Below, piece after piece: positions 40,408 to 57,884 of a stretch of DNA of 64,000 nucleotides. Position numbers and translations under genes: made by a program. Numbering within the stretch: position 1 is the stretch's first letter; the number at the start of each line of letters is the position of its first letter. The stretch is from Clostridium sp. MD294 (GTDB lineage: Bacteria > Bacillota > Clostridia > Lachnospirales > Anaerotignaceae), in the NCBI RefSeq assembly GCF_000364165.2, contig NZ_CP097810.1:248001-312000 (forward strand), in the 5' to 3' direction. Below the pieces are notes generated by a model. It was not told the origin of the DNA, did no database searches, and saw only the letters and a program-made list of their open reading frames with translations.

Positions 40408-41107
40408 TTGAGTATAAAATATAGAAAAATATTACAGGAATTATAAAGTAATATATTAGCAAAAAAAATACAATCAAATAAAAAAATTACCTACATTTAA
40501 AGAAGACTTAATAAATCAACATCAAGTCAGTAGAACAACTATTCGTAAAGCAATTTCTATATTAGTCTAGTCAGCAATGGATATATTTATCAAATACAGA
40601 GTAGTGGCATATTTTTAAAAATATCTGTACTAAAAGGGTATCTAAGTTTAGAAAATTTAAGGGGGTTGACAAGAGATTATACTAATAAAAAAGTAGAAAT
40701 TAATATTTTAGAATTAAAATTAGTACCAGCAGAAAAACAAAAGTCTGTTATTAATGAAATTATAATATCAATGCTCCTTTATATTTTTTAAAAAGAGTAA
40801 TATTAGTAAATAGAAACCCTTTTATAATAAAATGTATCTATTTTGACAAAAAAATAGTTCCTTAATACAAATGAAAAGATTGCTAAAAAATCAATATATA
40901 GCTATATTATAAATGATTTAGGACATAACATAGGATTTGCAAACAAAGTAATTTATACAGACAAATGGAATAAATAAAATGCACAATATTTTTATTTACA
41001 GAAAGGGAGAACAAACTTTTATTATAGACAATACAAAATTTCTAAGTACAAGAGAAGTGTTTGCAATATCCACTTCTATACATAATTACAAAAGTACAAA
41101 ATTTTAA
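40408..41107 (+). pseudogene. GntR/HutC-family regulator, decayed
   Basis: From a TTG at 40408 with a GAGG site, the frames can be joined into one GntR regulator. LPTFKEDLINQHQVSRTTIR and the wing GYIYQIQSSGIF form the winged helix; ISVLKGYLSLENLRGLTRDY and INILELKLVPAEKQKSV start a UTRA ligand domain; DLGHNIGFANKVIYTDKW and FIIDNTKFLSTREVFAIS are near the end (stop about 41107). At least three frameshifts and two stops break it, so it is clearly inactive. UTRA domains bind sugar phosphates or similar ligands. Two GTATAC-centred 18 nt repeats lie just downstream. Confidence 0.8.
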
Positions 41108-41171: not shown

Positions 41172-41334
41172 AAAAGGTATACTTTTTGACAAAGTTTACC
41201 ATGCTTTTATAAAGATACATTTATACTAATTTTTATATCTTTACTACAATAGGATTTGTTTAAATTGTTCAAAAAAATTTTTGAAAATTTACAAAAGGTG
41301 GAAAAAATCTATTTCTTCAAAAAGTATACCTTTT
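41172..41334. repeat. Pair of 18 bp inverted repeats centred on GTATAC
   Basis: AAAAGGTATACTTTTTGA (41172-41189) recurs perfectly inverted at 41317-41334, 127 nt apart. Each copy has a GTATAC core, as in operators of GntR/HutC regulators. They lie between the GntR pseudogene and the chemoreceptor gene, so they may be leftover operators or ends of a small element. Nothing else could be identified from 41108 to 41477. Confidence 0.6.
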
Positions 41335-41477
41335 AAGGCAAACTAATAATATAGTTATTCATTGCAAAAAACATTATTTTTCAAAATATATTATTTATTT
41401 TTTAATTCGTTGATGTTACATTAATAAAGTAATATAATATAATAAAAATAAAATGTACTATGATGGGGGAGATAACA

Positions 41478-43319
41478 TTGTTTAAAAATCAAAATGACGA
41501 AAACATGGAAAACGCAGAAATTGTACAAAAGCAAACAAAAAAAAGTACTAAAGGAACAACAAAATACCAAATACTGAAGGGTTATTTAATGATAACATCT
41601 ATTACAGTACTTGTAGTGGTAGTGTTATTTGCCTTTCAAGCTTTAATATACGGCAGATACAAAGTTGTTTCTGAAAGTTATACTTCAGAAAATATTTCAA
41701 AAGATATGGTTTCTGCTCACTATGATTGGGTATTAAAATTAACAAATGCTTTGCATACAGGAGAAAGATTTGAAGGAAATCTTGACCCAAATACTTGTTC
41801 ATTTGGCACATGGCTCTCAGAAAATGAAGCAAAAATTACAGATAATGAAATTGCAAGCAGAATTAAACTCATTAAAGAAGTACACGCTGAAATACATGCT
41901 TTTGCTAGTGATGTCAATACTTTAAATGCAGAACAAAGATTAGAAAAGTACGATGAATTTATTACATCATATGAACCAAAAGTGAATACATTGATTGATA
42001 ACTTAAGAGGAATTGCTAACAGATATACTTTTATAGCACAAGAAGCTGCAGATGCACTAAGTATGCTTCTTTTGATTTCTATTATTTTTATATTAATATT
42101 AACAGTAATTGCTATTGTTGTAAGTGCATATTTAGCAAATTCTACTTCTACAAAAATATCAGCTCCTATGACTTCTATAGCTGCATGGTCAAAAGAGCTT
42201 TCAGAAGGTGCTGATACACTAGATTTCAATTTTGATTATGGTGATATTGATGAAAATAATGAAATTGCTATTATGATTGATTCTTTTAAGCAACTTGCAA
42301 ACAGTATACAAGAAAATGTTAGAGTCGTAAAACGTGTTGCAGATGGTGATATGACTGTTTTTGTTGATATTCGTTCTAGTAAAGATACTTTAGGAAAAAA
42401 TTTATATAGAATGGTACAAAGCAACGATGCACTTTTTTCAGAAATATTAAGGGTAGCACATAAAGTAGCAGAAGGTTCTACTTACATCGCAAACGTTAGT
42501 CATCAATTAGCAGAAAGTGCTCATGTACAGGCACAAACAGTAAATGAATTATCTTCTTCTATTAACAACGCTGCAGATTTGATAAGCAAAAGCTCAGAAC
42601 ATATGGCAGAAGCTTCTTCTATTTCTGATATTATTAAAACAAATGCACAAGAAAGTAATGAAAAAATGAATGTGCTTGCGGGCTCTGTAGAAGAAATGAA
42701 ATTAGCATCACAAAAAGTTTCACAAGTTATTAAAACAATAGATGATATTGCTTTCCAAACGAGTATACTTGCATTAAATGCTTCTGTGGAAGCTGCAAGA
42801 GCAGGAGAAGCTGGAAAAGGGTTTGCTGTTGTAGCAAACGAAGTAAGACAGCTAGCTTTAAAAAGTACTGTAGCTGCAGATGAAAGTAAAACATTAATTC
42901 AAAATACTATTGATAAAGCAGTCATGGGAAGTAAAATTTCTGTAGAAGCATTAACTATGTTTGAAACAATTGTAGGTGAAATCAATAATATTACTTCTAT
43001 TATACAAGAGGAATCTATATCTTCTGCTACACAGTTAGAATGTATAGAAGATATCAGAGCAAATATTGCAGGTATTATGAGAGAAACATCAAGCAATGTT
43101 GATATTAGTAAAAATTCTGCAAATTCCAGTAAAGAAATGCAGACAAATGCAGATTTACTTAAAGCAGAAATGGAAAAATTCAATTTAAGACAACGTCAGC
43201 CAGGTAAAGCTTATATTCCACCAGAAAAACAAGGTGACTATGAATTTATCAAAAAGGCACAAGAAGATTATGATAGAACACAAGAAACAGGACAATTCCA
43301 TTATAATTATGACGAATAA
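41478..43319 (+). CDS. Methyl-accepting chemotaxis protein with outer CZB-like domain
   Basis: This 613-residue receptor has membrane segments near residues 37-58 and 196-218, a HAMP region, and a cytoplasmic signalling domain with IDDIAFQTSILALNASVEAA near 420 and no CheW-binding tail anomalies visible. The outer loop (residues 76-190) carries HYDW (His81), then CSFGTW (Cys107) and VHAEIH (His136, His140). That matches the Cys1-His3 zinc site of the CZB domain, which in most receptors is cytoplasmic. I use the TTG at 41478 because GGGGGAG lies at correct spacing; the ATGs before it have no site. It has its own terminator. Confidence 0.85.
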   Translation: MFKNQNDENMENAEIVQKQTKKSTKGTTKYQILKGYLMITSITVLVVVVLFAFQALIYGRYKVVSESYTSENISKDMVSAHYDWVLKLTNALHTGERFEGNLDPNTCSFGTWLSENEAKITDNEIASRIKLIKEVHAEIHAFASDVNTLNAEQRLEKYDEFITSYEPKVNTLIDNLRGIANRYTFIAQEAADALSMLLLISIIFILILTVIAIVVSAYLANSTSTKISAPMTSIAAWSKELSEGADTLDFNFDYGDIDENNEIAIMIDSFKQLANSIQENVRVVKRVADGDMTVFVDIRSSKDTLGKNLYRMVQSNDALFSEILRVAHKVAEGSTYIANVSHQLAESAHVQAQTVNELSSSINNAADLISKSSEHMAEASSISDIIKTNAQESNEKMNVLAGSVEEMKLASQKVSQVIKTIDDIAFQTSILALNASVEAARAGEAGKGFAVVANEVRQLALKSTVAADESKTLIQNTIDKAVMGSKISVEALTMFETIVGEINNITSIIQEESISSATQLECIEDIRANIAGIMRETSSNVDISKNSANSSKEMQTNADLLKAEMEKFNLRQRQPGKAYIPPEKQGDYEFIKKAQEDYDRTQETGQFHYNYDE

Positions 43320-43341
43320 AAAAGGGCTTATGCCCTTTTTT
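43318..43341 (+). terminator. Terminator after the chemoreceptor gene
   Basis: AAAAAGGGC pairs with GCCCTTTTT (43319-43340) with a four-base loop, followed by T residues. It overlaps the end of the stop region. Confidence 0.85.
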
Positions 43342-43361
43342 ATTCTGTTGGTTTCTATTAT

Positions 43362-55568: not shown

Positions 55569-56075
55569 TTATTCATTTAAAAGTTGTTTTCTATATTGTT
55601 GGTATTCTTCTGTAGACTCTTTTATTTCTTCATAATCTTCTTTTTTCAATTTTCTTATAATTTTTGCTGGTACACCATATGCTATATGTCCTTCTGGTAC
55701 AATCATATTCTGTGGTACTATAGCACCTGCACCTATAATACAATTTTTTTCTATAACGACACCATTCTGTACAATTGCTCCCATACCAATAATACAATCA
55801 TCTGCTATAGTACAACCATGTACAATAGCATTATGTCCTATTGTTACATTTTTTCCAATATTGACATCTATGCCAATTTCTGTATGAATACAACTATTTT
55901 CTTGTATATTTGTATTATCTCCTATACTTACCTTATTGTCTTCTCCTCTTATCACTACATTAGGATATACAATACAATTCTCACCCATCTCTATATTACC
56001 TAACAAAACTGCTTGTGGAAAGATATAACTATCTTTTCCTACAATAGGCGTATATTGTTTATACTTTTTTATCAT
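55569..56075 (-). CDS. Gamma carbonic anhydrase family protein (hexapeptide repeat)
   Basis: This 168-residue protein is a left-handed beta-helix of hexapeptide repeats of the YrdA/PaaY/CaiE group. The three metal-binding His positions of gamma carbonic anhydrases are kept: His64 (SCIHTE), His81 (IGHN) and His86 (IVHG). NVVIRGEDNKVSIGDNTNIQ near 40-60 is typical. The C-terminus is a long charged helix. Activity as carbonic anhydrase is not certain for this branch. The ATG at 56075 is used; the GTG three codons upstream overlaps the AAAGGTG site. Confidence 0.9.
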   Translation of the reverse strand: MIKKYKQYTPIVGKDSYIFPQAVLLGNIEMGENCIVYPNVVIRGEDNKVSIGDNTNIQENSCIHTEIGIDVNIGKNVTIGHNAIVHGCTIADDCIIGMGAIVQNGVVIEKNCIIGAGAIVPQNMIVPEGHIAYGVPAKIIRKLKKEDYEEIKESTEEYQQYRKQLLNE

Positions 56076-56102
56076 ATATTTCACCTTTTTGTATATTCCA
56101 TT

Positions 56103-57884
56103 TTAATATTTATCAAAATTTTCTTCTACAGTAATATGGCTGTTATCATAGTTTGGTTTAAAATTACTACTATCATCATAATAAGTATTATTGTTGATGT
56201 TAATATTGTCGTAACTTTCTGTATTCATTTCCTGTTCTGTTAATTTGAATTTAGAAATTAAATCTCTTAATGTTTGTGCTTGTGCAGAAAGTTCTTGGCT
56301 AGATGCAGCATTCTCTTCTGCTGTTGCTGTATTGGTGTGTACTACACTGGAAACTTGACTAATTCCTTCTGTTACTTGTGCAATAGCTTCTGCTTGCCAT
56401 GCAAAATCAGATGCAATTTTATCTACCACTGCTGCAATACTTTTTGAACCTTCTACTACAGAAGAAAGTAAATTTGCTGTTTCTCCTGCAATTTCTGTAC
56501 CATTTTTTACTGCTTTAATAGAAGTTTCAATCAATGTTGTAGTATTCTTTGCTGCTTCTGCACTTTTACTTGCTAAACTACGCACTTCATCAGCAACTAC
56601 TGCAAAACCTTTTCCTGCTGTACCCGCTCTTGCTGCTTCTACTGCTGCATTCAATGCTAATATATTCGTTTGGAATGCAATATCTTCTATTGTCTTAATA
56701 ATTTTACTGATTTCGCTAGAACTAGCATTAATGTTTTCCATAGCACTAATCATATTTTTCATTTGGTCATTACAGTTTAATATTACTGTTGTAACATCTG
56801 TTACCTGTCCATTTGCTACTTTTGTACTCTTTTCATTTGTTTCTACATGGTTACGAATATCTTCTGTTGTTGCAACTAATTCTTCTACAGAACTCGCTTG
56901 CTCTGTGGCACCTTGTGAAAGTATCTGTGCACCAGTTGATACTTTTTCTGACTCATTTGCAACTAACATACCTGCTTTTTGTATATTTTTTACTATATTA
57001 GACAAAACACCTTGAAATTCTATTATAGAATTTTGAATTTCCTTAAATTCTCCTCTAAATTCATATTCTGATACAACATTCAAGTGTCCTTCTGCCATCA
57101 TCTCCATAGAATATCTTATTTCTTTTACATAATTTTTAAGTTCTTTTACTGAAAAATTTAACGTATCTGCCAATATTCCAATTTCGTTATTAGATGTATA
57201 AGGTATTTCAAAATCTAATCTTCCTTCTGATAGTTTTTTACTAGCATCTGTAATAATTAAAATAGGATTTACAATACTTTTTATGTTATATCTAAATAGT
57301 ATTAATACTGTTATAAATACAAGTAATATTACTACTACTGTACACATTGTAGAAAAATTTGCCAATCTTGTAATACTGTCTTCACTTTCTTGTAGTATTT
57401 CATTTATAATTTCAATAATTTCATTCATTTGACTAGAAAGTCCTAAAACATACTGTTTTGTTTGGTCTGTATAAATTTCTTTTGCTTTTTCATAATCTGT
57501 ATCTTTTATAGATAATATTTCTACTGCAGAAGTATGTATTTTTTCATGTATATTTTTTAAACTCTCTAATTTTGATGAAACATTTTCTGGCCAATTTGTA
57601 CGATCTGTATCATAAAGTAATTTTCCTAAACCACAAGTTTTACAATCTAAACTGCCAGTAAATTCATCTCCAAAATTTAAAGAAGAATCTAAACTCTCCA
57701 ACCACTGAAAATGGGCTGTTTGTGCTGTTAAAACGGCATTATTTAATGTAATAATTATTTGTTCTCTTTCACTTGATTTTTTTACTTTTTCAAAACATCC
57801 AACAGTAACTGTTCCACTTATAATTACAGCTATCAAAATAATAAATACACGTAAAAAAATGGAACGTTTAATTGACTTATTCAA
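56103..57884 (-). CDS. Methyl-accepting chemotaxis protein with outer CZB-like domain, copy 2
   Basis: This 593-residue receptor has membrane segments near residues 11-30 and 178-198, a HAMP region and a complete signalling domain ([20 protein letters not shown] near 400). The outer loop keeps the CZB-like ligands in order: His58 (AHFQW), Cys84 (CGLGKL, with Cys81 near), His113 and His117 (IHEKIH). The start is TTG at 57884 with AAAGAGG at nine bases. The plan is the same as the receptor at 41478 but the sequences differ widely outside these motifs, so the two likely sense related signals. Its outward location is inferred from topology. Confidence 0.85.

Follow-up and report, generated by a model that had tools for sequence, protein, structure and literature searches.

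The 64,000-nucleotide stretch of Clostridium sp. MD294 DNA that we analysed (the window), part of a gut-type Clostridia genome, contains two chemoreceptor genes, on opposite strands, each encoding a receptor with a CZB domain between two predicted membrane segments (Table 1). For the gene on the plus strand, the first receptor gene, we prefer the TTG start codon at 41478 over the alternative upstream ATG because the sequence GGGGGAG lies 6 nt 5′ of the TTG and because the codon at the same site is GTG in the close relative L003 and an in-frame Met in another close relative, L004. The start, coordinates and residue numbering given in an earlier, sequence-only reading of this DNA are correct: His81, Cys107, His136 and His140 are where that reading had put them, and our check also gave Trp84, Gly110 and Trp112. 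A terminator-like hairpin overlaps the stop codon, so transcription of this gene is probably monocistronic. Our search for an operon partner found none, as the hairpin lies at the stop and the downstream neighbours vary among relatives, and the reverse strand of the gene is without a long, supported open reading frame.

The region upstream of the first receptor gene has two further features. A segment of ~165 bp (41172–41334) carries palindromes, AAAAAGTATACYTTTTTG, at both ends and resembles either a repeat of MITE type or a double operator. Four more pairs of these palindromes are found elsewhere in the genome with a spacing of 146–148 bp, most of which visibly share inner sequence in either orientation, and L003 contains one palindrome of this type at a similar position. 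There is also a remnant of a GntR/UTRA regulator gene at 40549–40788 (62% over 72 aa); L003 has an intact copy of the gene in the corresponding position (2043–2756).

Table 1 Features of the two CZB receptor genes and their flanks (positions are those of the window).
Feature	Position	Strand	Details
Promoter-like site	41410–41438	+	TTGATG-17-TATAAT; consensus match only; also in L003
Alternative ATG start	41460		Adds 6 aa (619-aa frame)
Chemoreceptor gene (first receptor)	41478–43319	+	613 aa, TTG start
TM1	41592–41648	+	Residues 39–57 (approximate), hydropathy
Outer sensor loop	41649–42065	+	139 aa, predicted four-helix bundle
CZB domain (PF13682)	41718–41915	+	Residues 81–146; ligands H81, C107, H136, H140
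TM2	42066–42122	+	Residues 197–215 (approximate), hydropathy
HAMP	42153–42314	+	Residues 226–279; 21.3 bits, under the 25-bit Pfam cut-off
MCPsignal	42630–43076	+	Residues 385–533; 118.4 bits; cytoplasmic kinase-control domain
Terminator-like hairpin	43314–43345	+	At stop codon of first receptor gene
Second outer-CZB chemoreceptor	56103–57884	−	593 aa; CZB at 57513–57713 (31.6 bits vs 29.4), HAMP, MCPsignal

The first receptor has a CZB domain that is predicted to face outward

The sequence-only reading had recognised a CZB-like Cys1-His3 pattern in the loop between the two membrane segments. When we searched the receptor with the CZB profile the match was significant (PF13682, E 1.6e-9, 38.4 bits versus a curated cut-off of 29.4), and the isolated loop scored 41.1 bits. 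All four ligands are in place in the loop, with His81, Cys107 (in CSFGTW), His136 and His140 making up a 1Cys-3His set with the Cx[LF]Gx[W] core, and Cys107 is the sole Cys in the loop. The ligands are spaced H-xx-W-x22-C-x-F-G-x-W-x23-HxxxH, which fits the CZB motif as reported (Draper et al. 2011). The ligand motif is absent from the other receptors of this genome that have two detected membrane segments, only the two CZB receptors carrying it, which excludes a chance origin of the motif.

The first receptor has a Lys/Arg-rich N-terminus and follows the order of a membrane chemoreceptor, namely TM1, sensor loop, TM2, HAMP (with a match below cut-off) and MCPsignal. MCP signalling domains have their target, CheA, in the cytoplasm, and a single membrane segment lies between the CZB domain and the MCP signalling domain, which puts the CZB domain on the outer side of the membrane. 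The outward orientation proposed earlier thus agrees with the predicted topology, in which the loop sits between two membrane segments and the signalling domain comes after the second.

Structure prediction is consistent with this arrangement. In a model of TM1, the loop and TM2 made with four sequences (pLDDT 87.1), one long helix runs from TM1 into CZB α1 and another joins the final CZB helix to TM2. The loop is modelled as a helical bundle with the elements expected of a CZB domain. This model aligns end to end with the intact Tsr chain (8c5v_I; Z 10.8, 185 residues, 3.9 Å), and the best structural matches of a core model are to the citrate/malate-binding ligand-binding domain (LBD) of MCP2201 (Z 13.0, 2.5 Å, 121 residues, 18% identity), Z scores of up to ~13 not being diagnostic for helical bundles, which are a common fold. 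Even with a Z below the diagnostic level for bundles, the Tsr alignment supports the predicted outer-loop topology, though it is no proof of the fold. At the level of sequence profiles, 18 outer loops compared with the PDB gave the CZB domain of DgcZ as the best match (3t9o, E 8.3e-6), with the H, the C and the HxxxH in register. A single-sequence phmmer search of the loop against the PDB returned nothing relevant, and Foldseek and VIA-align searches with the two models did not list DgcZ (3t9o) or TlpD, a result that is uninformative either way for a helical bundle.

The genome encodes two CZB receptors and an output pathway

A search of the whole genome (2.92 Mb) with PF13682 identified exactly two CZB proteins, both encoded inside the window, and the architecture of the second receptor is equal to that of the first. 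Two CZB proteins are encoded in each of the five genomes of the genus that we sampled, this one included. The neighbours of the first receptor gene, which we take from their sequences to be rdgB-like and YfcE-like genes, adjoin it in two relatives. Neighbours of the second, among them what on the same basis are presumably ileS, a gene for a DUF6612 protein and a glycogen phosphorylase-like gene, are kept in the four other genomes of the genus, within contig reach. Because neighbouring genes are kept in relatives, synteny shows that both CZB receptors have been inherited by vertical descent.

Elsewhere the genome contains 18 MCPsignal matches, three CheW-domain proteins, one of which is encoded in a 709-aa frame (the length expected of CheA), and three strong matches to flagellin. 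As CheA/CheW-type proteins and flagellins are present, the CZB receptors have an output pathway. We note that the frame of an MCPsignal match at G000:C1:2289118–2289480 is broken by two internal stops and is likely a decayed receptor gene.

The second receptor ends in NFDKY, which resembles a CheR/CheB-binding pentapeptide, and the first receptor has no such tail. A gene for a hexapeptide-repeat protein (55569–56084, minus strand) begins 18 bp after the second receptor gene on the same strand and is adjacent to it also in genomes G030 and G031; our guess is that its product is a γ-carbonic-anhydrase-like protein, which would make it a zinc enzyme.

Receptors with an outer CZB domain are not rare in Bacillota

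Our PF13682 search took in 58 genomes from the family, 392 from the order and 398 drawn evenly across the phylum, and we sorted 232 non-redundant Bacillota CZB proteins according to the position of the CZB domain, the membrane segments (assigned from hydropathy) and the MCP domain. Proteins in which the CZB domain is N-terminal to the MCP domain with membrane segments on both sides were classed as outer. The census covers most of the matched places, ~16 places of the phylum sample, mostly weak matches, being left out. It comprises 83 outer proteins, 111 soluble proteins with a C-terminal CZB domain, 15 membrane-spanning proteins with a C-terminal CZB domain and 23 others, for the most part short proteins that lack an MCP domain and are probably of the CheW-CZB type. 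The proteins of 270–320 aa in L007–L013, from other genera of the family, have a CZB domain and no MCP domain, mostly carry a DPHKC signature and are also probably of the CheW-CZB type.

In the even phylum sample 43 of 100 CZB proteins are outer and 40 are soluble with a C-terminal CZB domain, and the 43 come from 38 genomes and 22 families; clearly, this layout is no rarity in the phylum. Perkins et al. 2021 counted 384 putative periplasmic CZBs, ~3.9% of their nr CZB collection (PMC8262984), a share that does not contradict ours since the two have different sampling bases. With that difference in sampling, the outer layout is far commoner in Bacillota than the published overall share suggests. 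The statement in the sequence-only reading that CZB domains are cytoplasmic and C-terminal in most receptors thus stands globally (PMC8262984) but less so in Bacillota.

The putative zinc ligands of outer CZB domains are invariant

Across a diverse alignment of 18 outer loops (18–35% identity to the loop of the first receptor), no column is invariant except those of the four ligands and of the Gly in CxxG. The 1Cys-3His set is kept in all 83 outer CZB proteins, which come from many Bacillota families, a count in which ligand loss may be underestimated because the CZB profile was seeded with motif-bearing members. A second Cys is absent from 71 of the 83 loops. Outer CZB domains also have a signature of their own, F-x-G-x-L-D before the Cys, the F and G of which occur jointly in 61 of 83 outer proteins and in none of 149 other CZB proteins. 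The outer loops are acidic, and Lys and Arg are concentrated in the cytoplasmic flanks (5.1 within the 25 residues preceding TM1 versus 2.0 per 25 in the loop), so that the flanks obey the positive-inside rule across the 83 outer relatives.

In a tree of 190 CZB domains the outer label requires 6 changes (at least 2 of them forced by starred branches) versus 54 in shuffles. The outer group is therefore strongly clustered in the tree, the alignment having too few columns to prove a single origin. A pentapeptide-like C-terminal tail such as NFDKY is present in 12 of 82 outer receptors, including the second receptor, and in none of the 149 remaining CZB proteins; pentapeptide-tailed CZB receptors have been reported earlier, 61% of them with an N-terminal CZB domain (PMC7390727).

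A zinc-occupancy sensor is the favoured explanation

We propose that the outer four-helix sensor of the first receptor uses Cys107 and the three His residues to coordinate a single metal ion, most likely Zn2+, and that occupancy of this site would report the zinc available outside the cell. The bundle would adopt one conformation with zinc bound and a looser one when zinc is lost, whether because it is scarce, because it is chelated or because the Cys-Zn thiolate is oxidised, and TM2 and HAMP would pass this change to a CheA/CheW array that steers the flagella. An outer Zn2+ sensor that reads occupancy in this way, with TM2/HAMP output to CheA, is the best explanation we have for the first receptor, and we judge it somewhat more probable than not. 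It builds on the CZB homology with its four ligands, the order of the membrane segments, the HAMP and MCP domains, the CheW-domain and flagellin genes and the conservation of the ligands; from these we infer that the metal is zinc, that its occupancy is what is signalled, and which sign the response has.

CZB domains studied so far bind one Zn2+ through 3His-1Cys. Zinc-bound TlpD is kinase-ON and apo TlpD inhibits CheA (PMC12871147). The DgcZ CZB domain has a femtomolar affinity for zinc (PMC8846402, PMC8262984). An outer site that was equally tight would saturate, in which case its zinc could have a purely structural role, and an outer sensor would need a weaker one. In the literature that we searched, which lay mostly outside subscription journals, we found no metal-binding or behavioural data on any outer CZB domain. 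The earlier suggestion that the first receptor senses metal or oxidants outside the cell is plausible.

Zinc in the outer CZB domain could instead be purely structural, the metal serving just to hold the bundle together while an organic molecule, bound in a pocket of 4HB type, is the real ligand, as might be expected from the likeness of the core model to the MCP2201 LBD (Z 13.0) and from weak matches to the Pfam domain 4HB_MCP_1 in 6 of the 18 outer loops. No loop position other than the ligands and one Gly is invariant, so the alignment shows no conserved pocket of this kind, and zinc occupancy alters output in the CZB domains studied so far (PMC12871147, PMC8262984). We therefore consider a structural role unlikely.

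Another possibility is that the receptor is an oxidant sensor, in which host HOCl or a similar strong oxidant would directly oxidise the outer Cys-Zn thiolate, free the zinc and so signal inflammation before the oxidant enters the cell. HOCl can oxidise the CZB Cys, leading to zinc release, and the CZB domains of TlpD, McpA and DgcZ react with HOCl through this same Cys (PMC6715182, PMC8262984). The lone Cys in the loop, here and in 71 of 83 outer relatives, fits such chemistry in that an intramolecular disulfide is no option there. However, a 2026 preprint on Salmonella McpA makes a case for the exogenous Zn2+ pool as the true signal and favours it over direct oxidation at physiological doses (PMC13370339), and outside the cell there would presumably be no glutathione to reset the Cys. 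Direct oxidant sensing thus seems to us rather improbable. That the motif is a fossil or chance resemblance, kept without metal binding, is very improbable indeed given that no ligand is lost in any of the 83 outer proteins, which span many Bacillota families, and that all five sampled genomes of the genus have two CZB copies.

Extending the zinc-occupancy reading to the whole group, we suggest tentatively, and with less than even confidence, that outer CZB receptors are a distinct, mostly single lineage (FxGxLDxxxC) of extracellular labile-zinc sensors for zinc-taxis, about as common in Bacillota as cytoplasmic CZB receptors. It is debated whether the signal read by CZB domains is zinc as such, HOCl acting directly, or redox relayed by the zinc pool. 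All the experimentally tested examples that we found are in the cytoplasm, a compartment with buffered zinc and scavenged oxidants. Outer CZB receptors are directly exposed to the external pool and would therefore allow a clean test of the CZB signal. If they respond to zinc, gut Clostridia could steer by the zinc limitation that the host imposes in inflammation.

Comparison with known systems

The 4HB_MCP domains of Tsr and MCP2201 resemble the first receptor in having an outer four-helix bundle between TM1 and TM2 with HAMP and MCP domains after it; these domains bind organic ligands, and we know of none that has a CZB ligand set. E. coli DgcZ (YdeH, 3t9o), the closest solved structure by profile, has an N-terminal CZB domain but, unlike the first receptor, is a soluble diguanylate cyclase. 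H. pylori TlpD and S. Typhimurium McpA share MCP output and a 3His-1Cys CZB domain with the first receptor, a single Zn being bound in TlpD. Their CZB domain, however, is cytoplasmic and C-terminal to MCPsignal in a protein with no membrane segment, a soluble layout that differs from that of the first receptor with its two membrane segments and N-terminal CZB domain, and the outer group differs from them further in its FxGxLD signature before the Cys.

The outer layout itself has already been named, as the 'periplasmic' CZB group of Perkins et al. 2021 (PMC8262984), in which a membrane-bound chemoreceptor carries the CZB domain in its N-terminal part and the domain is predicted to lie outside the cell. 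The first receptor is a further member of this group: in both, 1Cys-3His is kept and the residue after the Cys is not Arg (here it is Ser), and we see no basic difference between the group and the present proteins, matched by description rather than by member sequences. What our analysis adds to the group is its prevalence in Bacillota, the invariance of its ligands and a signature specific to outer CZB domains.
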